From positions 1 through 34,406 of the forward strand of contig CALUPJ010000074.1 of assembly GCA_944322555.1 (NCBI GenBank): DNA of 34,406 nucleotides, read 5' to 3'. Under the pieces are notes generated by a model, which saw only the letters and a list, made by a program, of their open reading frames with translations, ran no database searches and had not been told where the DNA came from. Positions within the stretch are counted from its first letter, which is position 1; the number at the start of each line of letters is the position of its first letter. This document shows positions 6,530 to 32,786 of this stretch, piece by piece. The DNA comes from Candidatus Gastranaerophilales bacterium. Its GTDB lineage: Bacteria > Cyanobacteriota > Vampirovibrionia > Gastranaerophilales > Gastranaerophilaceae. A program made the position numbers and the translations under genes.

Positions 6530-7312
6530 ATGCAAATTGATGCAGGGCTTGAGAGTATAGAAAAGAATCTGGCAAAATCGGTAGAAAAAGTTACCGTGCC
6601 CAAGCAGTCACGCTCTTACAATCTTTGTGTAAAAGCTGATGCATTAAGATTTGCCAAAATGTACAAAGAATCCGTTCAGGCATATTTACAGGCAATTATG
6701 ATGGATAGAACGGATCCGAAGGCTTATTTCGGTCTTGCAATGTCATATAAATATTTGAAAGAATATAAAAAAGCCATAAATACACTTCTGAAACTTATCA
6801 AACTTGATGACGGCAATGATGAGTATTTCTATGAAATAGGAGTATGTTACCTTTCTGACGGCCAGCCCAAAATGGCAATAGACCATTTGATTAAGGCAAT
6901 ACTTATTAATCGTGAAAATGTTGAAGCACAAATCCAGCTTGCAATAGCACATGAACTTGTAGATGAAGCGGATTTATCTTTAATGATTTATAACAAACTT
7001 ATTGAAACAAATCCGGAGTTTTTAAAAGCGTATTACAATAAAGCAGCCATGCTTATGGGAATGGGTGATTTTATGGAAGCATCAAGAACCTTTTTCAGGC
7101 TGATAAAGCGTAACCCGGATTATTACAAAGCATACCTCGGTATTGCAATGAGTTTTGACAAAATGGCAAAATATAAAGAAGCAATAAGATATTACAAAAA
7201 ATTCCTTGAACTTAAGCAATTTTCGGAAGATGCCGTTTTTGCAAGAAACAGGGTAGAGGAACTTAGAGAACAATATTTTTCAAAAGATAATAAATTTACT
7301 GTAATAAAATAG
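6530..7312 (+). CDS. Tetratricopeptide-repeat protein
   Basis: A 260-residue protein made almost wholly of TPR helical hairpins. After a short N-terminal stretch the repeats run from about residue 30 to 245, roughly six units, recognisable by A-x-x-x-G/A-x-x-Y and YxxAIxxLxKxIxLD patterns such as LKEYKKAINTLLKLIKLD, QPKMAIDHLIKAILIN and KYKEAIRYYKKFLEL. No signal peptide or membrane segment is seen, so it is probably a cytoplasmic scaffold or adaptor; its partner is unknown. The ATG at 6530 is preceded by GGGAGAG at the right distance, and TAATAT/TACAAT sequences just upstream could be the -10. It is divergent from the decarboxylase gene and shares with it the direct repeat at 6448-6482. Confidence 0.88.
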   Translation: MQIDAGLESIEKNLAKSVEKVTVPKQSRSYNLCVKADALRFAKMYKESVQAYLQAIMMDRTDPKAYFGLAMSYKYLKEYKKAINTLLKLIKLDDGNDEYFYEIGVCYLSDGQPKMAIDHLIKAILINRENVEAQIQLAIAHELVDEADLSLMIYNKLIETNPEFLKAYYNKAAMLMGMGDFMEASRTFFRLIKRNPDYYKAYLGIAMSFDKMAKYKEAIRYYKKFLELKQFSEDAVFARNRVEELREQYFSKDNKFTVIK

Positions 7313-7506
7313 AGTTACTTAAGCTTTATATTTGTAAATTACTTTCTTGCTATGTTTAATTTTTCTATATTATAAGAACGCAAGCAGATTATATATTATG
7401 CTAAGGGCTTAATGTAACAATTAATTTTTATTAAATATTTTCATACAATAACAAAGGACGAAGATTGTACAATGTGTATTCTGTTTTAATAGCTTCTTAA
7501 ATTTTA

Positions 7507-7515
7507 TGCTATAAT
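7507..7515 (+). promoter_or_regulatory. Extended -10 promoter giving a possibly leaderless mRNA
   Basis: TG at 7507-7508, C, then a perfect TATAAT at 7510-7515. Six bases later comes the ATG at 7522, so transcription starting 7 bases past the -10 would begin on the start codon. The 209-base gap upstream holds nothing else but a perfect ATTGTACAAT palindrome at 7464-7473. Confidence 0.6.
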
Positions 7516-7521
7516 CAGATT

Positions 7522-9417
7522 ATGAATATTAACCCGATTAAACGAATCAGTACGCGGAACGTAAGTACCAATAATCCACAGAATCCTGCTTTTAAAGCGG
7601 AAAATTGTCCTGATGAGAATAAATTAGTAAAGGAGCTTGATAAGATGAGTATAATTAACAATGTAAATATCAACAAAAAAGATTGTGAGCTTAACCTTTG
7701 CATGGAGGAATTGGAAAAAAGAACTCATAAAGACTATTTGACTACGAAGAAAATGCTTACGGCAGATGCACCTGAGTATCTGGCACTTGCTGACGGAGAC
7801 AAAGAGGCTCTCAAACATCTTGTCAAAGCGGCAGTTGTTTTAGACAAAATAAATATGCAGCTGGATAATCCCAATAATCTGCCTTTTAAAGAATATCTTG
7901 AAACAGAAACCGCCAAAGGCAACGAACAGGCAAAATTGACTAAGATTCTTTTTGATGCACAAAAAGGAGTATGTTCGCTTGACAGAGAAAGCAACATGAT
8001 AGAATTAATGAAAGGTGTTTCAATGCGTCCCGGGAAAGGCGTTTACCCGCAGGATTTAGAGAAAGAAGAATTTCACCAAATTTTGATTAATATGTTAAAA
8101 CAAGGCAAAGTTGATGAAGTAGCAAAAATTCTCAATCAGCGTTCCGTAGTTGAAAGAGTCGGAAACGAGCTTGTCGCAACGGATTATGTTGACAAATTTA
8201 AGGATGATTTTGCATATATGGCATCTGAACTCGAAAGAGCCGCAGAAACTTCTACCAATAAGGATTTTAATGAGTTTTTAAAATTGCAGGCTAAAGCCCT
8301 GAGAACGGCAGATCCGATGCTTGATGCATATGCCGATAAAAAGTGGGCTTCGCTTCAGGACACACCTCTGGAATTTACCATAACAAGAGAAAATTATTCG
8401 GATGAATTAACTGAAACGGTTGTTGAAAATCCGGAATTAAAGAAACTACTTGATGAAAACGGTATTGTACCCGTTGCAAAAGATTTTCTCGGCGGCAGAG
8501 TCGGAATTGTAAATAAAAAAGGTACTGAAGCTATATTAAATGTTAAAAAGTTTTTACCTCTTATGGCACAGAATATGCCGTTCAAAGATGATTATATACA
8601 GAACATAACTCCCGGCGGTCAGGATTCTAAACAAACAATGGTAGATGTTGATTTAGTTGCGGTTACCGGAGATGTCGGAGAATTCAGAGCCGGAATTACA
8701 CTTGCGGAAAATCTGCCTAATGATGATAAGCTTTCCATAAAAGAACTTGACGGCGGAAGGAGAAATGTTTACCACAGACAAATAAGACTTATAACAACAG
8801 ATGATGCCAGAGAAAAGATGAAAAAACGTCTGGAAGCCACTTTAAATCCGGAACTTCACAAATATTACAACGATGAAGCTGACCATTGGTTCACGGTAGG
8901 ACACGAAAACGGACACTCGCTGGGGCCGAAATCCGGTACGGAAGGACTTGGTAAATATAAATCAATTATTGAAGAAAACAAAGCCGACATGGTTTCACTT
9001 GCGATGCTTGATGTTTTGACGGAAGCCGGAATGTATACACCCGAACAGAGGAAACAGATTATAGTTACATATGCCGCCGATAATATGATGACATCAAAAC
9101 CTACAATGAGTCAAGCTCACAGGGTACGTTCGGTTATGCAAAATTATTACTTTATTAAAGAAGGAGCAATTGAAATTTCTAAAGACGGTATCTTAAATGT
9201 TAATATTGATAAAATGGTTCCGACTGCAAGAAAAATGCTTGAAGAAATTATTCAGGTTCAAATGAAAGGCGAATTTGCAAAAGCCGAGAAGTATGTTACG
9301 GATTATTTTGTATGGACACCTGAAATGGAAAAAATGGCTGAAAACCTCAAGAAAGTCTCCAAAACATTGAACGGAAAAGTAGAGTCTCCGCTCGCGGAAG
9401 AACTTCTTAAAGCTTAA
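7522..9417 (+). CDS. M49 (dipeptidyl-peptidase III)-like zinc metallopeptidase
   Basis: A 631-residue protein whose C-terminal half carries the two zinc motifs of peptidase family M49. The first is H461-E-N-G-H465 in VGHENGHSLGPKSG; classic family members have a longer HExxGH motif, so this is the shorter HExxH form. The second is E484-E485-N-K-A-D489, matching the EExRAD motif that supplies the third zinc ligand. GITLAENLPND at about residues 393-403 resembles the family's conserved substrate-strand region. DPP III enzymes remove dipeptides from the N-terminus of short peptides. The N-terminal third is helical and not recognised. No signal peptide is seen, so it is probably cytoplasmic. The start may be ATG 7522 (leaderless) or ATG 7645, which has an excellent AAAGGAG 9 bases upstream. 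It overlaps the next, convergent gene by 11 bases. Confidence 0.75.
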   Translation: MNINPIKRISTRNVSTNNPQNPAFKAENCPDENKLVKELDKMSIINNVNINKKDCELNLCMEELEKRTHKDYLTTKKMLTADAPEYLALADGDKEALKHLVKAAVVLDKINMQLDNPNNLPFKEYLETETAKGNEQAKLTKILFDAQKGVCSLDRESNMIELMKGVSMRPGKGVYPQDLEKEEFHQILINMLKQGKVDEVAKILNQRSVVERVGNELVATDYVDKFKDDFAYMASELERAAETSTNKDFNEFLKLQAKALRTADPMLDAYADKKWASLQDTPLEFTITRENYSDELTETVVENPELKKLLDENGIVPVAKDFLGGRVGIVNKKGTEAILNVKKFLPLMAQNMPFKDDYIQNITPGGQDSKQTMVDVDLVAVTGDVGEFRAGITLAENLPNDDKLSIKELDGGRRNVYHRQIRLITTDDAREKMKKRLEATLNPELHKYYNDEADHWFTVGHENGHSLGPKSGTEGLGKYKSIIEENKADMVSLAMLDVLTEAGMYTPEQRKQIIVTYAADNMMTSKPTMSQAHRVRSVMQNYYFIKEGAIEISKDGILNVNIDKMVPTARKMLEEIIQVQMKGEFAKAEKYVTDYFVWTPEMEKMAENLKKVSKTLNGKVESPLAEELLKA

Positions 9418-12394: not shown

Positions 12395-12408
12395 CTAAGA
12401 ATTCTTAG
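12395..12408. other. Perfect 14-base palindrome at the flagellin stop
   Basis: CTAAGAATTCTTAG covers the flagellin stop codon (12405-12407) between the two convergent genes. No U-run follows on either strand, so it is not a standard intrinsic terminator; it may be chance or a weak 3'-end structure. Confidence 0.4.
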
Positions 12409-15400
12409 CCTGCTATATTAATTCCTCTCAGCAGACCGAGAACATTTTCGGCCCGCAGGTTTCTTGAAGATGCCATTAGGACTGCACTTGCCTGCTGAAG
12501 AATTTGATAGCGGATAAAGCTTGACGATTCTTCCGCGATATCGGCGTCCCTAAGCGTTGAACGGCTTGAGATAAGATTATTTAATTTCAGACTTTGAGCT
12601 TCGGCTGCATTTTCCAGACGATTAATTGTGGTACCGATATTCAAAAGCTGTTCCTGAACGGTTTTAATCATATCGTCAATACTTTCGAGACTATCGAGAG
12701 CACCCTCCTGACTCATAAAATCAACGCTGAAATCAAAGAGATTAAAACTTATTTTCGTACTGATAAATTTGTCGTCTCCGCTTCCGATATCAACTTTTAT
12801 ATTAACCTCAAACGGGCGCGGTGTAATATCAACCGCATTAGTAAAAGATGTGGCGCTGCCGTTGTTTATAATAGTATTCCTGTCACCGCCTTCACCGTCT
12901 ATTGTGTTACCGGTACCGCCTGCAACCATTATGCTGTCATTGGCATCCCCGCCAAAAGCGGTATTATTATTTCCGTTAACACTGATATCATCTATACCGG
13001 CTCCGCCTTGAACGGAATTTCCGTCGCCGCGAACAGTTATTTCATTTTCGCCGGAAGCTGTTTCAATTTGGTTTCCGTCACCGCGAATTTCTATTTTATC
13101 ATTTCCGCTTCCGGTCAAAAGTTCGTTATTATTACCCGTAACGGAAATATCTTTATTCCCGAGGATTGTCGAATAGCTGTTACCGTCTCCGCGTATAACA
13201 ACATCATTTTCTCCGCGGGTATTCACAACGGTATTATTGTCTCCATAGATATTAATATTACCGGACAGATTGCCGAAATTAAGATTGTTACTGTCTCCCT
13301 GAACACCGAGAATATTGTCCCCGCTTCCTGCGCTAACGGTATTTTGCGAGCCGTTTATAACAAACCTGTTATTTCCGTCACCTGTCGTAACAGTATTGGA
13401 GGCGCTGTTAATCGTTATATTATTTGCGCCCTCACCGGCATGAACTATGTTTTGTGAGCCGGAAAGAGTTATCTTGTTGTTTCCGTCGCCCGTTTCAATG
13501 TTTGTATTATTACTGCTGCTGATATTAAACGTATTATTTCCCTCTCCGCCTGTTACCGCCAGATTTGTCGAAGCATTAAGCGTTATACTATCGTTCCCAG
13601 CGCCGCCTGAAAGAGAGTTGTTTTCGCTGTTCATAATGAGAGTATCATTTCCGCCGAGAGCATTAACCGTATTATTACTGCCCTGCTCTATGGTAATAAG
13701 ATCGGCTAAATCACTGCCCGAAATTACGTTATTATCTCCGCGGATATTTAATACGGCAGACTCGTTCAATTCTGCATCTATACCAAAATTTGAGCCGTTA
13801 ACGGTTATTACTCCGGTGTTTGGATTTAAGGAAAATTTAAGAGTATTGCTTCCGGCAATATTATTTGTAACAGTATATGTTTTACCGCCAAGAGTAAATG
13901 TCTGCTTTTCGCCCTGATAAGTAAAAGACAGTCCTCCGCTGTTCGGGTCGCTGTTTACGTTAGACATTGATGTTCCGGTACCGTTATCAATATAATAGTT
14001 ATTTCCAGTTCCGCCGTCTATTACATTATTTGCGCCGTCTATAACGAAATAATCATCACCCGCCGCGCCTGATACAGTATTGTTATCACCGGATATATAA
14101 AAAGTGTCATTTCCGCTTCCGCCCGTCACACTTGCATTATCGGTATTTATGTTATAAATATTATTTCCGCCGGTATCGGTAACTGTTACATTGGCATTGA
14201 TATTAAACACATCATCACCATCTCCGCCATCTATAGTATATATAGAACCTTTATTTATGGTTATAGTATCATTTCCGGCTTCACCATATATATATGCAGT
14301 GTCATTTGTTATTATTGTATCGTCTCCCTCCCCGCCATAAAAGCTTGAATCAGCCCCTGAAACTTGAGTAATAGTATCATTTCCTTTATTACCATATACT
14401 TTTACATAATAACCATTTGTAACAATATTATCCGCCAAATCACCACCATAAAAATACACACTTCTTCCACATAAATTAACATCATGCGCAACATCTTTCT
14501 GCCCTTCAATACTTGCATAAGAAGCCGCAAAAGAAACCGTCCCTGTAATATCATTATATCCATATAAAATACTCATACAGGGAATATTTGTCATTTGATC
14601 TATTGTGTACTCTTTATTTCCGACATTAATTGTATAAGAACCTGAGACCGATATTTTTTGATACTCCGCATTATTTATGCTATCATCAAAACCGGCAACC
14701 AGAGAATTCTCTATTGTTCCGTTAAGAGTATTATTATTTCCGCTTCCACCGTACACACCGCTGTTTTTCATGGTACCGGTTATATTGAGAGTATTAGTGC
14801 CCTCACCCATATCAATATAATTATTAAGTGATTCTTTATTTGTAGAAGTTATAATATCATTACCGGAACCCGTATATATAGTATTTCTATATGCACTCAT
14901 TGTTATAGTATTATTCCCATCGCCGGTTTGTACAAATGTGTATCCGGTAATAGTTATATTATTATCACCGCCGTAAGCATATATATAATTGTTTATAGCC
15001 TTTGAAATAATTGTATCGGATAAATTCCCTCCATAAAAAGACATATTTTGATTATTTAATATTACATTATGAGCTTTATTTTCATCACCTTTTATAGTCC
15101 AAGACCCTTTAATTGAGCCAAAAGTTACCTGACCTGTAACAGAATCTACAGAATATATCAAGCTTGCTTCAACGTTAGATTTATTTGTTACGGAATAGCT
15201 TATTCCATTTATAGTCAATTCCTTAGTTTCATATGCCAAGAAGACTGTAGAATAGTTTGTCGCTCCGGGAACATTTGTAGAAATAGTACCCGTACCGTTA
15301 TCAATTATTGAATTTGTACCGGCACCGCCGTTAACTGTATTCCCGGAACCCGACACAATATTGAAACTGTCTTCTCCGTCATCACCATTAAAAGTAGAAG

Positions 15401-16487
15401 TGCTTGTTTTTATTGTAAAACTATCATCCCCCGCACCGCCATAAAACGTATTAGCCGTACCACTTGCATTAAAAATATCATTTCCGGCTTCACCATATGC
15501 ATTAATTACCGATGCATTTGTTATAAATGTATCGTTTCCGTCTCCGCCGTATATATTTCCGTATCCTGCATTAACTATAAATGTATCGTCTCCCGCACCG
15601 CCGTACAAATCGTTATATCGCGATGAAGAGTCCAGAATCTGTATCTTGTCAGCCAAATCCCCGCCATATACGTCATTATAAGTACCGTTAATTATTAAAT
15701 TGTGTACAACATCCGACTGACCCTCAATCTTAAATTTGTTACCTATAAAAGTGAGTTCGCCCGAAGCTGTATCTTTGATATATGATAACGAAGCCGCGGT
15801 GCTTTGTAAATTTGTAACAGTATACTCAACACCGTCTATTGTAATAACACGCTTCTCATTTGCACGAAAATCTTCCGCTCCCTCTATAGTGCCTGCTGAC
15901 AGCAGACTCGGAGATGAATTTTTTAAAGAAAAATCCGGCACGGCATTACCCTGAAACTCCGTACCGGATTGGGGTTGGATATGTATGTTGTTTGTAATCT
16001 GTTTGTTATTAATCCTTGCAGTTGCAGCCATATTGTTTAAAGATGTCGTTACAACATTCTCCGGCTGCGGTGTTTCATAAAGATTCAGCCCGTTATATTC
16101 CATAGAATCTCTTATTTGCTCTATTTGGGCTATTATCTCATCCGCTTCAGCCTGCATAGCTTCGCGGGAAGTCTCTCCATACGCACCGTCAGAAGCCTGA
16201 ACCGCCAGACTGCGTAAACGCTGCAGCAATTCTTCTATCTCTTCCAATCCGCCCTCTGCGGTCTGAAGCATTGCTATACCGTCTCCGGCGTTTTGCTGAA
16301 CCTGCAGCATCGAACTTATTTGAGTGTTTAAATCCGTTATAATCGAAAACCCTGCCGCATTATCTTTTGCACGGTTTACCTTATAACCGCTTGTCATCCG
16401 CTCTATAGAGCTGTTCAAGCCAAGAGTGTTATCATATAAAGTCCGTTGTAATATTAAATCCGCAACATCAGTACCAAGAGTTATCAT
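12405..16487 (-). CDS. fliC: Giant flagellin with an RTX-like beta-roll insertion
   Basis: A 1360-residue flagellin, against a usual 270-600. Residues 1-138 are the N-terminal D0/D1 helices: LNSSIERMTSGYKVNRAKDN, AAGFSIITDLNTQI, NAGDGIAMLQTAEGGLEEI. Residues about 1263-1360 are the matching C-terminal D1/D0 helices: STLRDADIAEESSSFIRYQI, LQQASAVLMAS, and a hydrophobic end. These parts polymerise into the filament; flagellin leaves through the flagellar type III exporter without a signal peptide. Between them lie about 1,120 residues in the position of the exposed D2/D3 domains, built of four modules, each a small beta domain followed by GGxGxD/N repeats of about 18 residues, as in calcium-binding RTX beta-rolls. 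GGGAGG lies 8 bases before the ATG. I see no convincing sigma-28 promoter. The termini make the family certain; calcium binding is inferred. Confidence 0.93.
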   Translation of the reverse strand: MITLGTDVADLILQRTLYDNTLGLNSSIERMTSGYKVNRAKDNAAGFSIITDLNTQISSMLQVQQNAGDGIAMLQTAEGGLEEIEELLQRLRSLAVQASDGAYGETSREAMQAEADEIIAQIEQIRDSMEYNGLNLYETPQPENVVTTSLNNMAATARINNKQITNNIHIQPQSGTEFQGNAVPDFSLKNSSPSLLSAGTIEGAEDFRANEKRVITIDGVEYTVTNLQSTAASLSYIKDTASGELTFIGNKFKIEGQSDVVHNLIINGTYNDVYGGDLADKIQILDSSSRYNDLYGGAGDDTFIVNAGYGNIYGGDGNDTFITNASVINAYGEAGNDIFNASGTANTFYGGAGDDSFTIKTSTSTFNGDDGEDSFNIVSGSGNTVNGGAGTNSIIDNGTGTISTNVPGATNYSTVFLAYETKELTINGISYSVTNKSNVEASLIYSVDSVTGQVTFGSIKGSWTIKGDENKAHNVILNNQNMSFYGGNLSDTIISKAINNYIYAYGGDNNITITGYTFVQTGDGNNTITMSAYRNTIYTGSGNDIITSTNKESLNNYIDMGEGTNTLNITGTMKNSGVYGGSGNNNTLNGTIENSLVAGFDDSINNAEYQKISVSGSYTINVGNKEYTIDQMTNIPCMSILYGYNDITGTVSFAASYASIEGQKDVAHDVNLCGRSVYFYGGDLADNIVTNGYYVKVYGNKGNDTITQVSGADSSFYGGEGDDTIITNDTAYIYGEAGNDTITINKGSIYTIDGGDGDDVFNINANVTVTDTGGNNIYNINTDNASVTGGSGNDTFYISGDNNTVSGAAGDDYFVIDGANNVIDGGTGNNYYIDNGTGTSMSNVNSDPNSGGLSFTYQGEKQTFTLGGKTYTVTNNIAGSNTLKFSLNPNTGVITVNGSNFGIDAELNESAVLNIRGDNNVISGSDLADLITIEQGSNNTVNALGGNDTLIMNSENNSLSGGAGNDSITLNASTNLAVTGGEGNNTFNISSSNNTNIETGDGNNKITLSGSQNIVHAGEGANNITINSASNTVTTGDGNNRFVINGSQNTVSAGSGDNILGVQGDSNNLNFGNLSGNINIYGDNNTVVNTRGENDVVIRGDGNSYSTILGNKDISVTGNNNELLTGSGNDKIEIRGDGNQIETASGENEITVRGDGNSVQGGAGIDDISVNGNNNTAFGGDANDSIMVAGGTGNTIDGEGGDRNTIINNGSATSFTNAVDITPRPFEVNIKVDIGSGDDKFISTKISFNLFDFSVDFMSQEGALDSLESIDDMIKTVQEQLLNIGTTINRLENAAEAQSLKLNNLISSRSTLRDADIAEESSSFIRYQILQQASAVLMASSRNLRAENVLGLLRGINIAG
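12702..16073 (-). repeat. Four-module beta/RTX repeat region of the flagellin
   Basis: Residues about 139-1262. Each module opens with a strand pair of the type TIDGVEYTVTN (module 1, from about 215), LTINGISYSVTN (2, 424), INVGNKEYTID (3, 620) and FTLGGKTYTVTN (4, 864). A strand such as SGELTFIGNKF follows, and then GGDLADK, GGNLSDT, GGDLADN or GSDLADL at about 275, 486, 681 and 924. An RTX-like array follows, with turns such as YGGAGDDTFIVNAGYGNI recurring every 18 residues. Three arrays close with a related motif: IIDNGTGTIST, YIDNGTGTSMS and IINNGSATSFT. The Asp of GGxGxD is often Asn, most of all in module 4. Confidence 0.85.
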
Positions 16488-28252: not shown

Positions 28253-29515
28253 TTATCCTCCCTCTGCAACTCTTATTATACTGTTTACCGTACAATCATT
28301 TAATTCTTCCACAGCTTCGCGTATAAGTTTTTCACGACAGCGTTCCGTAATAACCGTAATATCGGCGGTATTATCTGCAGAGACACCTTTCTGCACAATA
28401 CTTGAAAGACTTATATTTTTATTTGCGCAAATAGTTCCGATTTTGGCAATGACACCTATGGCATTGGGGGCGGTAATTGAAATATAATATTTGTTATAAG
28501 TATCTTCAATCTTAACGGGATTAGCCTTAGAATGGTGATTGCATCTCATCATAGGCAGCATGTAGTCCGTATGCCCAAATTCAGAATGTATTGCCAGAAT
28601 ATCACCTACAACCGAACTCGCAGTTGGAAACTCACCGGCACCCGGACCTGACAAAACTATATCACCTATCGGATGTCCGCTCATTTCTACAGCATTAGTT
28701 ACATAATCAATATGAGCCAGCATACTGTTTTTTGATACCAGCATAGGATGAACTCTCACATCGGCATTATTATTTTCATCAATTTCAGCGCTTGCAATAA
28801 GCTTAATTTTATAGCCAAGCTCGTTGGCTTTTGCCATATCTTCTTTTCTTACTTTTGTTATTCCTTCTCTATAAACATTTTCAAGCTTTATTCTTGTTTT
28901 AAATGCAATGGTAGAAAGGGTTGTAATTTTATATGCCGCATCAAAACCTTCCACATCACCCGTCGGATCTGTTTCAGCATAACCCAGAGCCTGCGCTTCT
29001 TTCAAAACATCTTCATAAGATGCGCCATCTACATCCATTTTTGTAAGAATATAGTTTGTCGTTCCATTCAATATTGCCTGAATTTTTGTAATCTTGTTAC
29101 CTGCAAGAATTGTTTTAATAGGCATAATAATCGGTATACCGCCCGCAATTGCAGCTTCATAAAGAATAACGCGGTTATGTTCTTCCGCAAAGTTAAACAG
29201 TTCTTCGCCATGTTTAGCTAAAAGTTCTTTATTTGCGGTAACAATATGTTTACCGCTCTTAATTGCCGCTTCTATATAATCAAGGGCAGGATGAATACCT
29301 CCGATAAGCTCGACAATTACGTCAATTGAAGAATCGTTAACTAATTCATACGGATTATCCGTAAGCATTGAAACCGGAACATCCGCTTTACGCGGTTTAT
29401 TTAGATTTTTTACCGCAATTGTTACAATTTCAACACTGTCAATCTTTTGAAGAGTTTTATAAACTCCTGTACCGACAGTGCCAAAGCCGATTATACCTAT
29501 TCGCAATTTCTTCAT
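28253..29515 (-). CDS. hom: Homoserine dehydrogenase with ACT domain
   Basis: A 420-residue NAD(P)-dependent homoserine dehydrogenase, which reduces aspartate semialdehyde to homoserine, the branch point to threonine and methionine. The Rossmann motif is [15 protein letters not shown] (G10, G12, G15). [12 protein letters not shown] and [11 protein letters not shown] are core motifs. The catalytic part shows [12 protein letters not shown] and [19 protein letters not shown], with the conserved acidic and lysine residues. The last 80 residues, [18 protein letters not shown] and onwards, form an ACT domain, which usually gives threonine feedback. ATG 29515 follows AGGAG by about 7 bases and starts MKKLRIG; the ATG at 29530 overlaps that ribosome site. 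It is the first gene of hom-thrC-proB. Confidence 0.96.
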
Positions 29516-29582
29516 ACAATTCTCCTTCATCGGGTTTTATTATATCATAGATATACGTTGATAGGAAATTAGTTTTATATCA

Positions 29583-30311: not shown

Positions 30312-30320
30312 TGCTAGGAT
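30312..30320 (+). promoter_or_regulatory. Extended -10 promoter giving a possibly leaderless sulP mRNA
   Basis: TG at 30312-30313, C, TAGGAT at 30315-30320, then six bases and the ATG at 30327. This is the same geometry as at 7507-7522. No Shine-Dalgarno can be placed between. Confidence 0.6.
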
Positions 30321-30326
30321 TAATTT

Positions 30327-31964
30327 ATGATAAAAACAAGATTAAAAATATTTGCGGGAGACATTTTAGGAGCATTAAATTCTGCAATTGTTGCACTTCC
30401 GCAGGCTCTGGCTTTTGGGGTTGCAACAGGTTTCGGCGCGAGTGCCGGTGTCTGGGGAGCAATAATTTTATGCTTCGTTGCAGGTATTATCGGCGCCAAA
30501 ATCCCGTTAGTATCAGGCATTACAGGGCCTGTTACAATTGTTGTTGCCTCTGTTATGCATGCTCTTAATGCCGACATTTCTTCCGTAATTCTTGTTATCT
30601 TTATGGCAGGTATTTTACAGATTATATTGAGCCTTACATCACTTCCGGCCATCGTAAAATATGTTCCCTATCCCGTAATTTCGGGATTTATGAACGGAGT
30701 CGGGATTATCATTATAATAATGCAGATAAATCCTCTTCTCGGCTGCCCGATTATGTCCAATACCATAAACAGTATAACGGCAGTTTTTCAAAATCTTGAT
30801 AATATTAACTGCCATGCACTTTTTATAGGATTACTTACACTCTTAATAGTATTTGCCGTTCCAAAAAAATTTAATAAAATTATTCCGTCGCAAGCAATTG
30901 CCCTTGTTATTTGTACATTTTTATCCGTAAAGTTAGGACTGAACGTTGACAGAATTTCCGAAGTTTCAGTTAATTTGCCGGCATTAACACTGCCAAAAGC
31001 CCATTTGCATGAAGTAATAACATATTTTCACTATGCCGTAATGCTCGCAATTGTTTTATCAGCAGAGAGTTTACTTACAGTTCTTGTAGGAGATTCTTTA
31101 TTAAAAACCAAAACTTCGTCTAAAACTATGCTTTTAGGGCAGGGACTGGGCAATATGGTTTGCGCCCTTACGGGTTCGCTTCCTGGTTCTGCAGCAACAA
31201 TGCGGACGGTTGCAGCAATTAATACCGGTTCAACAACAAGACTAACCGCCGTAATAAACCCGGTTATATTAATAATTTTGTTATTTAAACTTTCCGATTT
31301 TGTTGCACAAATTCCTCTTGCCGTTCTTGCGGGAATTTTGATAAAAATCGGATACGATATTATTGATGTAAAACTTCTTAAGGTTATTAAGTTTGCTCCG
31401 AAAGACGATTTGTATGTTCTCGCGGTTGTATTTATTCTGACCGTTTTTTACAACCTTATTGTTGCCGTAGGAGCAGGTATTACCTGTGCCGCCCTTCTTT
31501 ATGCGAAACGCACGGCTGACAGCACAAAGCTTGTGCAGAAAACCGTATATGATAAAGATATTGAAAAGATTGAAAAATTACTTGATAAAGATTACAAACA
31601 CAAAATCAGAGTTGTACATATAGACGGACAATTCTTTTTTGGTTCTGCAACACAATTAATTTCGCAATTTGAAGAAATCTGGGGAACTAAAATTTTAATC
31701 CTGGATTATTCTTCTGATGCCTTGCTTGATATTTCAGCCATTTTTGCGCTTGAAGATATTATTATAAGACTTCTTGCCCAAAAAGTCAGAATACAGCTGG
31801 TTCTTAAAAACGAGAATGTAAAAAAACAACTTGAAACTCACGGTATTATAAGCCAGATAGGTGAGGATAAAATCTTCTACTCGGAAGTAGAAGCCATAGA
31901 TTACGCGAAGAATCGATTGAAAGACAAAGCGGAAACACGCAAAAAACATTTCTGGCAATCATAA
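30327..31964 (+). CDS. SulP-family anion transporter with STAS domain
   Basis: A 545-residue inner-membrane transporter of the SulP/SLC26 family, which carry sulfate, bicarbonate or other anions. The opening KTRLKIFAGDILGALNSAIV then ALPQALAFGVATGFGASAGV is the family's first-helix signature, and GLWxx-type SGITGPVTIVVASVM follows. The membrane part has at least ten hydrophobic helices up to about residue 415, with SGFMNGVGIIIIIMQINPLL, LSAESLLTVLVGDSLLKTK and GSLPGSAATMRTVAAINTGS. The final part, from about 430, is a STAS domain (VVHIDGQFFFGSATQL, ILDYSSDALLDISAIFALED), which in related proteins controls transport. The substrate cannot be read from sequence, although the short N-terminus and AES motif resemble BicA-like bicarbonate or sulfate carriers. 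The gene overlaps the next convergent one by six bases. Confidence 0.93.
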   Translation: MIKTRLKIFAGDILGALNSAIVALPQALAFGVATGFGASAGVWGAIILCFVAGIIGAKIPLVSGITGPVTIVVASVMHALNADISSVILVIFMAGILQIILSLTSLPAIVKYVPYPVISGFMNGVGIIIIIMQINPLLGCPIMSNTINSITAVFQNLDNINCHALFIGLLTLLIVFAVPKKFNKIIPSQAIALVICTFLSVKLGLNVDRISEVSVNLPALTLPKAHLHEVITYFHYAVMLAIVLSAESLLTVLVGDSLLKTKTSSKTMLLGQGLGNMVCALTGSLPGSAATMRTVAAINTGSTTRLTAVINPVILIILLFKLSDFVAQIPLAVLAGILIKIGYDIIDVKLLKVIKFAPKDDLYVLAVVFILTVFYNLIVAVGAGITCAALLYAKRTADSTKLVQKTVYDKDIEKIEKLLDKDYKHKIRVVHIDGQFFFGSATQLISQFEEIWGTKILILDYSSDALLDISAIFALEDIIIRLLAQKVRIQLVLKNENVKKQLETHGIISQIGEDKIFYSEVEAIDYAKNRLKDKAETRKKHFWQS

Positions 31965-32765
31965 GTAGCACTTTGGCTCTTCACCTTCAACACCGGCATA
32001 CAATTCTACATATTTTTTTGCCGGACTGGCATCAATCTTAGCAAACAAAACTTCTTCAATCTGGAAAAATCCGACATCAGCACTCATCTCTACGGAGATT
32101 TTAATGGGTTTCTTTTCTCCGTGTTGTATTCTTATACGGTTGATTGCATTGGCGGAATATTTATGAATATCTCCCACACGCGGAGTCGTATTAATAGAAA
32201 GCGGTATTCTGGCACGTCCCTTTGTCATATCGCAGCCGTCAGCTATAAGAATTATTCCTGCCTCCGTGGAATGAATTTTTCTGGAAGACATATGTCCGAT
32301 TATTGATTCAATAACGATTGATCTTATAACTACACGTCTGTGTAAGTCCTCCGGAAATACGTGCAGCAACGCTCTTTCTATAAGCGGTTTGGCAAGAATG
32401 ACGGACATTTCTTCGTGTCCCTGACGTCCTATCATCATTCCCAAATCATGCATTAAACCTGCAAGAATAACCGCACACATACTGTCCTCAAAAGTTCCTA
32501 TTTCTTCTGTTTCAAGCGATGTTTTTATACCGCATTCATGCAGAATATTAAGCATTTTTATGGCGTTTGCACATACCTGCCTCATATGTACCGGGCCATG
32601 GTCATTGTAGCCTAAACGCTTAATAGAAACATTGTTTGCATAGTCCTGCATCTCCTGCAATTCTTCATCATCAAATAAGTAATGAACAAGCTTTAAGCAG
32701 TTAGGGCGGTTCTGCAAACGTTTTAATATCTTTGATTCAACTGAAACTTCTTTTACTGATTTCAT
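31959..32765 (-). CDS. HD-domain phosphohydrolase
   Basis: A 268-residue cytoplasmic protein with a metal-dependent HD domain, which in relatives hydrolyses phosphate esters such as nucleotides or cyclic dinucleotides. The metal ligands are visible in order: H56/H60 in NDHGPVHMRQV, H106-D107 in GLMHDLGMMIGRQGH with H117 following, H158 in IIGHMSS, and D176/D179 in ADGCDMTKGRAR. The N-terminal 50 residues are helical; the last 60 form a beta-rich domain (IKISVEMSADVGFFQ, EEVLFAKIDASPAKK). No output or sensor domain is present. ATG 32765 is used because the longer start at 32834 lies upstream of the predicted promoter. Its stop codon is tail to tail with sulP (31959-31964). The substrate is unknown. 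Confidence 0.85.
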   Translation of the reverse strand: MKSVKEVSVESKILKRLQNRPNCLKLVHYLFDDEELQEMQDYANNVSIKRLGYNDHGPVHMRQVCANAIKMLNILHECGIKTSLETEEIGTFEDSMCAVILAGLMHDLGMMIGRQGHEEMSVILAKPLIERALLHVFPEDLHRRVVIRSIVIESIIGHMSSRKIHSTEAGIILIADGCDMTKGRARIPLSINTTPRVGDIHKYSANAINRIRIQHGEKKPIKISVEMSADVGFFQIEEVLFAKIDASPAKKYVELYAGVEGEEPKCYL

Positions 32766-32777
32766 AGCTCTATATAT

Positions 32778-32786
32778 ATTGTAACA
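32778..32786 (-). promoter_or_regulatory. Extended -10 promoter of the HD-domain gene
   Basis: On the reverse strand TGT followed by TACAAT (32778-32783). The predicted start near 32771 leaves a leader of only about six bases (AGAGCT) before ATG 32765, too short for normal ribosome binding. Confidence 0.5.

Follow-up and report, generated by a model that had tools for sequence, protein, structure and literature searches.

How does a gene begin its translation when the ATG of its reading frame lies only six bases behind a -10 hexamer, and when a second ATG, preceded by a Shine-Dalgarno (SD) motif, follows in the same frame? This question is raised by the gene for an M49-like protein in the 34,406-nucleotide stretch of DNA analyzed here (the window). 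In leaderless mRNAs, the 5'-terminal AUG is bound by 70S ribosomes, and starts of this kind are known in several phyla. The initial annotation of the window had proposed them for the M49-like gene, the sulP gene and a gene for an HD-domain protein, and had taken the three as a sign that leaderless translation is common in this genome. Leaderless starts with such a geometry are already well described, and it is the M49-like gene with its two modes that is the interesting part. From the comparative sequence data presented below, we consider it very probable that the ATGs at 7522 and 30327 are leaderless starts, that the M49-like gene gives a long form from a leaderless start and a short form from an SD-led one, and that two start modes are used across the genome.

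The window belongs to an assembly of 1.79 Mb in 142 contigs. As to the M49-like protein, the closest contigs that encode it come from Candidatus Gastranaerophilales, which are non-photosynthetic gut relatives of the cyanobacteria. A gene for the photosystem II reaction center (PF00124) was not found in this assembly. A search of the same contigs for 16S rRNA gave 0 matches, and the SD motifs are thus read independently of the organism's own anti-SD sequence.

Start geometry in the window

The site of the M49-like gene (TGCTATAATCAGATTATG, 7507-7524, forward strand) consists of TGC (7507-7509), TATAAT (7510-7515), a six-base gap (7516-7521) and the ATG at 7522, at which transcription is predicted to begin. 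The site of sulP (TGCTAGGATTAATTTATG, 30312-30329, forward strand) has TGC at 30312-30314, TAGGAT at 30315-30320, six bases and the ATG at 30327. The identical arrangement claimed for the two genes is hence exact, each having its -10 hexamer at the 6-7 nt distance from the start codon. Position and orthologs mark 7507-7515 and 30312-30320 as the probable extended -10 elements, and the hexamer of the M49-like gene is a consensus match. No SD precedes the ATG at 7522; upstream of sulP, the single four-letter SD match (AGGA) is part of the -10 element itself.

The reading frame that opens at 30327 (30327-31964, forward strand; predicted leaderless start) encodes a transporter of the SulP family with Sulfate_transp and STAS domains. 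Two NCBIfam models, sulP and BicA, match it at scores short of their cut-offs; its best score is against the model of the bicarbonate transporter BicA, well below that cut-off. Elsewhere in the window, 12405-16487 encodes a 1360-residue flagellin with N- and C-terminal flagellin domains and a weak match to calcium-binding repeats in the middle of the protein.

One alternative is that the adjacency of -10 hexamer and ATG is a coincidence in an AT-rich genome (GC 36%), and that the real transcripts start further upstream. Taken by itself, the window does not exclude chance as the source of the pattern: TGNTANNNT-N6-ATG is found 4 times against 1.6 expected, and 8 of 100 shuffles reach 4. Two of these matches, at 417 and 16694, were rejected as leaderless starts, neither lying at a gene start. 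A general promoter scan of 7250-7700 likewise gave sites no more numerous than in shuffles. Three genes of one window could not have carried the claim that leaderless translation is common, and the decision between geometry and coincidence falls to the rest of the genome and to its relatives.

Spacing between -10 elements and start codons across the genome

The scan of the genome for TGnTANNNT-N6-ATG that the initial annotation had proposed gave 139 matches to TGNTANNNT-N6-ATG against 28 for the reversed pattern, well beyond chance, in a count that takes in non-gene sites such as 417 and 16694. For a test confined to gene starts, genes were identified from their hexamer usage in about 370 kb of the genome (20 stretches), with or without the window, and those with TGNTANNNT before any candidate in-frame ATG were counted at every spacing from 0 to 30. 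With the window left out, the motif precedes a candidate ATG at spacing 6 in 15 genes and at spacing 7 in 10, of 342, against a background of 1.52 per other spacing (Poisson 4e-15); with the window included, the counts are 17 and 10 of 369 genes and the background is 1.81. The hexamer TANAAT peaks at the same place, with 22, 12 and 6 genes at spacings 6, 7 and 8 over a background of 3.31. Such a sharp peak speaks against coincidence.

Corrected for background, the leaderless share comes to 6.4% and 8.8% of genes. These figures are used in preference to a mechanical list of 42 candidates among 365 genes, which is an over-count and was discarded because hom (see below) had passed it wrongly. We infer that some 6-9% of the called genes are leaderless, a minority beside the SD starts; the latter dominate, since five-letter SD motifs, which peak at spacings 5-9 in the same genes, reach up to 39 genes at one spacing. 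The notion that leaderless translation is common needs to be qualified by this number, SD starts being far more frequent.

The promoters themselves carry further information. The bases before the TG are T-rich in the 26 TGN-bearing candidates, with T at 81% at two positions. When the pattern TTTRTGnTAnnnT was sought (47 sites, from which 13 inside coding sequence and nine with no gene near were set aside), the first in-frame ATG lay at 6-7 nt in 12 of the 25 remaining sites, two of these 12 being the window's own cases, and at 20-47 nt in the other 13; at 8-19 nt there was none among these 25 non-coding, gene-near sites. In other genera of the family, the distance is 6 nt at 5 of 22 sites, and the next distances are 14 and then 19 or more. 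A split between 6-7 and 20-47 nt is what would be expected if a leader is either absent or long enough to hold an SD.

The HD-domain gene and hom

The third gene named in the initial annotation has a different geometry. The putative HD-domain gene (31959-32765, reverse strand; the open reading frame 31959-32834 matches Pfam HD weakly and falls short of the curated cut-off) is preceded by TGTTACAAT at 32786-32778 on the reverse strand, 12 bases from the ATG at 32765. The leader of about six bases ascribed to it agrees with the 5-6 nt predicted here, and it is just this leader that sets the gene apart from the M49-like and sulP genes. We do not count it as a third leaderless case, because a spacing of 12 falls within the range of 8-19 nt that the TTTRTGnTAnnnT promoters of the sample avoid; nor is the geometry conserved, TGNTANNNT standing at spacing 6 in 2 of the 28 orthologous loci and at spacing 12 in one, that of the window. 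In one relative with 90% identity (L229), the arrangement is TGTTATAAT-N6-ATG, and the promoter-to-ATG segment of the window (32765-32786) has six extra AT-rich bases in comparison. The HD-domain gene may thus have switched its mode, having once been leaderless and then drifted away, or the reverse.

The gene hom (28253-29547) was also rejected. Its upstream element TGATATAAT (29539-29547, reverse strand) has a first ATG at spacing 8, yet AAGGAG precedes the ATG at 29515, five codons further on. The first ATG looks like a decoy, and the transcript likely opens with a short 5' leader that carries the SD close to the 5' terminus.

Distribution across the phylum

Across the phylum, matches to TGNTANAAT-N6-ATG and to a control pattern were compared in 292 genomes. 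All 130 genomes of the organism's own family (f1) reach at least three times the control (6498 versus 641 matches in total). The single genome of family f2 has 33 versus 8, the five of family f3 have 89 versus 23, and the remainder of the phylum shows a weaker excess (1813 versus 881 in 156 genomes). Gene-start peaks were sought as well: the other genera of f1 show one that is less pronounced than in the genome studied here (spacing 6 in 10 of 359 genes, spacing 7 in 1; background 1.96), and f3, which belongs to the same class, has 6 of 225 genes at spacing 6 (background 1.0); the f2 sample amounts to one genome with 63 genes. Family f6 of the same phylum, which also has no PF00124, exceeds its control about tenfold in whole genomes (119 versus 12 in five genomes: G119, G123, G129, G140, G145), and 2 of 209 genes from its sampled stretches have the motif at spacing 6. 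Among 254 genes from 17 photosynthetic genomes, defined by PF00124, none has the motif at spacing 6 or 7, and no peak is seen that would correspond to the weaker excess in the remainder of the phylum. An AT-rich sequence that produced the adjacency by chance is hard to reconcile with this absence from the sampled photosynthetic relatives.

Conservation of the upstream starts

Relatives back the leaderless geometry at both genes of the window. Of the 30 sulP loci, 21 have TGNTANNNT six or seven bases before the ATG, always in frame and down to 53% protein identity, and these loci have no SD at spacings 1-15. At any other spacing the motif occurs in 0-2 of the sulP loci, and strict SD motifs appear at two odd spacings only. 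The nine loci without TGN at spacing 6-7 comprise four with TANNNT lacking the TG and five with neither.

A relative of the M49-like protein is encoded in 102 of 117 genomes of the family, and 110 loci, 98 of them distinct, were examined. When TGNTATAAT-N6-ATG was sought upstream of the 98 in any frame, 26 were found, and in all 26 the ATG is in the frame of the gene, with no stop between. In 38 loci chosen by their start peptide alone, 24 have TGNTATAAT-N6-ATG and 11 have an SD, none of the 24 carrying both; three (L074, L071, L078) have neither. Such mutual exclusion would have a probability of 3e-7 under independence, whereas these orthologs are related and cannot be counted as separate events. 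Among the 11 SD matches, some (L079 and L088, for example) fall inside a longer open frame, where they may be coding sequence. The most conserved bases over the 38 loci are those of the T run, the -10 element and position -1, with little conservation elsewhere. In L045 and L046 the promoter TGCTATAAT is kept, but between it and the same ATG lies an inserted leader bearing AAGGAG, in place of the six bases of L052; to judge from these sequences, the same promoter and start peptide are found in two modes. Given the spacing peak, the exclusion of SD motifs and the persistence of the arrangement down to 53-64% protein identity, we regard a chance origin as highly improbable, and continue with leaderless starts at 7522 and 30327.

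The M49-like protein and its N-terminal extension

The frame that begins at 7522 (7522-9417, forward strand) would encode a long form of 631 amino acids with a dipeptidyl peptidase III fold. Zinc motifs of M49 peptidases read HExxH or HExxGH plus EExxAD/E; the M49-like sequence has HENGH at 461-465 and EENKAD at 484-489, and all of these residues but G464 are invariant in 22 sequences. Searched against 6eom, the protein gives an E-value of 5.6e-26 (phmmer), and its predicted structure one of 3.1e-25 (Foldseek; TM 0.73/0.87). The curated models of Pfam (M49) and NCBIfam gave no match, and for this reason the protein is named only M49-like. The dipeptidyl peptidases III (M49) of Caldithrix abyssi and Corallococcus (PDB 6eom, 5zum; PMC5805324, PMC9820243) are similar to it in sequence and predicted fold and share the five-residue zinc motif HExxH, at about 23% and 20% identity in structural alignment. 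In comparison with these enzymes, the disordered extension and the two candidate starts are features of the M49-like gene, and its peptidase activity is putative.

The first 41 codons (7522-7644, forward strand) form an N-terminal extension with a short conserved start peptide, M-N-I-N-P-I, that is kept whether the start is leaderless or SD-led. Beyond its first six or seven residues, the extension is hypervariable and yet remains open and in frame. In the predicted structure, residues 1-52 have a pLDDT under 50 and are taken as disordered; with the remainder matching dipeptidyl peptidase III (6eom), a 631-residue and a 590-residue form should both hold the whole peptidase fold.

A probable second start inside the M49-like gene

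The shorter of these forms would begin at Met42. AAAGGAG (7629-7635, forward strand) is followed, after a spacer of 9 nt (among the longest within the SD spacing peak), by an ATG at 7645 (the whole arrangement spanning 7629-7647), which is in frame with and 41 codons downstream of the ATG at 7522; the predicted short form runs from 7645 to 9417 on the forward strand. A survey of 96 orthologous reading frames, 60 of which have Met at position 42, brought to light a constraint on synonymous codons. At codon 38 (Glu), GAG is used by 58 of 62 orthologs, as compared with 873 of 5138 Glu codons (17%) gene-wide and 40 of 94 in the next highest of the 50 Glu columns. Codon 39 (Leu) is CTT in 58 of 62, the highest of 58 Leu columns, and codon 37 is AAG in 30 of 30 cases of Lys among the 60 orthologs with Met42; codon 41, also Lys, is AAG in only 25 of 59. 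Where residue 37 is changed, GGAG or GAGGAG is still written. Ranked by rare-codon constraint, the gene's four best five-codon windows are those that open at codons 35, 37, 36 and 34. By plain codon identity, which leaves codon rarity aside, codons 37 and 39 are within the first four of 547, and codon 38 (0.71) is outside the 14 best. An SD motif at working distance before an internal in-frame start is, by these counts, conserved beyond the demands of the protein.

These data bear on two alternatives. The first holds that the M49-like gene has a single real start, the SD-led ATG at 7645, so that the -10 element belongs to an ordinary promoter and the 123 bases behind it are an open 5' leader. 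It would accommodate the constrained internal SD, the predicted disorder of the extension and the many orthologs of the family that align only from about residue 50, where they have an SD-led start. It leaves unexplained, however, why the ATG next to the promoter shares the gene's frame, with no intervening stop, in all 26 loci that have it, despite a linker that varies in length and sequence, why M-N-I-N-P-I is conserved in both modes, and why 11 of 38 orthologs place an SD at the upstream ATG. We therefore judge it very unlikely.

The second alternative is that only the long form is made, the constrained codons AAGGAGCTT having some other role, for instance in translational pausing, as an RNA-binding site or simply in the protein sequence. 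The peptide around AAGGAGCTT is indeed conserved itself, and internal SD-led ATGs show no genome-wide excess over the gene sample (2 of 84 genes have one in frame at codons 10-60). On the other hand, it is the synonymous choice that is constrained (GAG, AAG and CTT, 9 nt before a Met), and the RNA folds computed for both leaderless starts and for the internal SD showed nothing beyond shuffles (z 0.79 at the SD), which argues against a stable structure there. This explanation appears rather unlikely, though it is the stronger of the two. The absence of a genome-wide excess makes the two forms a feature of the M49-like gene, not of the genome. With the SD codons constrained and the extension in frame, the initial suggestion that AAAGGAG before 7645 could give two forms finds support, and the gene most likely has two products, a long one from the leaderless start and a short one from the SD-led start.

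Comparison with known leaderless systems

Zheng et al. (2011; PMC3160421) described TA-led leaderless genes in which the SD is replaced by a -10-like signal located some 10 bp ahead of the start codon; in low-GC genomes a TG precedes the -10, and orthologs switch between TA-led and SD-led starts. The present genome shares all three traits, the -10-like signal in place of an SD, the TG and the switching of orthologs. In the sections of that paper covered here, Cyanobacteria are not named among the groups with leaderless genes, and Gastranaerophilales are absent. In Deinococcus-Thermus, according to the sections considered of PMC12340547, TANNNT lies mostly 6-7 bp before the open reading frame in nearly a third of the genes, with TACACT the most frequent hexamer, and is taken as leaderless expression; the genome studied here differs in its share of about 6-9% and in its TATAAT-like hexamer with a TG and T-rich extension.

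Within the same phylum, 19 gene transcription start sites of Synechococcus elongatus UTEX 2973 are considered leaderless in the part of PMC6091082 consulted, and passages of other papers also mention leaderless transcripts in photosynthetic cyanobacteria. Seen against the 254 photosynthetic genes with no -10 peak at spacings 6-8, such cases would be rare or differently built. For Gastranaerophilales, Melainabacteria and Vampirovibrio, we found no report of leaderless starts in the open-licence literature, and among the titles listed from that literature for translation initiation in Gastranaerophilales, none is on leaderless starts.

Proposed mechanism and significance

What is read from the sequence is the geometry, the spacing peak, the conservation, the exclusion of SD motifs, the in-frame extension and the constrained internal SD codons; a mechanism that would join them runs as follows. 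A sigma-70-type promoter with an extended -10 (TTTATGNTATAAT-like), for which no strong -35 would be needed, would start RNA synthesis on the A of the ATG at 7522 and 30327, and the 5'-terminal AUG would be read without an SD, presumably by the assembled 70S ribosome. The remaining genes would mostly have leaders long enough for an SD. On the M49-like transcript, the leaderless AUG would give the 631-residue form with its disordered 41-residue extension, and the internal AAAGGAG-N9-AUG, used by 30S subunits, would give the 590-residue form with the whole peptidase fold.

Going one step further, the M49-like mRNA might act as a sensor of the state of the ribosomes, with the long form made by 70S particles at the leaderless AUG, the short one by 30S subunits at the internal SD of the same RNA, and read-in transcripts giving the short form only. 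We regard such a role as unlikely; if it existed, promoter and ribosome pool would set the ratio of long to short form and, via the conserved N-terminal peptide, also where the peptidase is located or how active it is.

Gastranaerophilales form an order of uncultured gut bacteria that is widespread and stands at the base of the cyanobacteria. With the geometry supported across the whole family and found in none of the sampled photosynthetic sisters, this order may show how leaderless and SD-led starts are interconverted. Programs that seek an SD when calling start codons may pick the wrong N-terminus in Gastranaerophilales genomes, and the M49-like gene would offer one small locus at which both start modes can be compared on a single reading frame.
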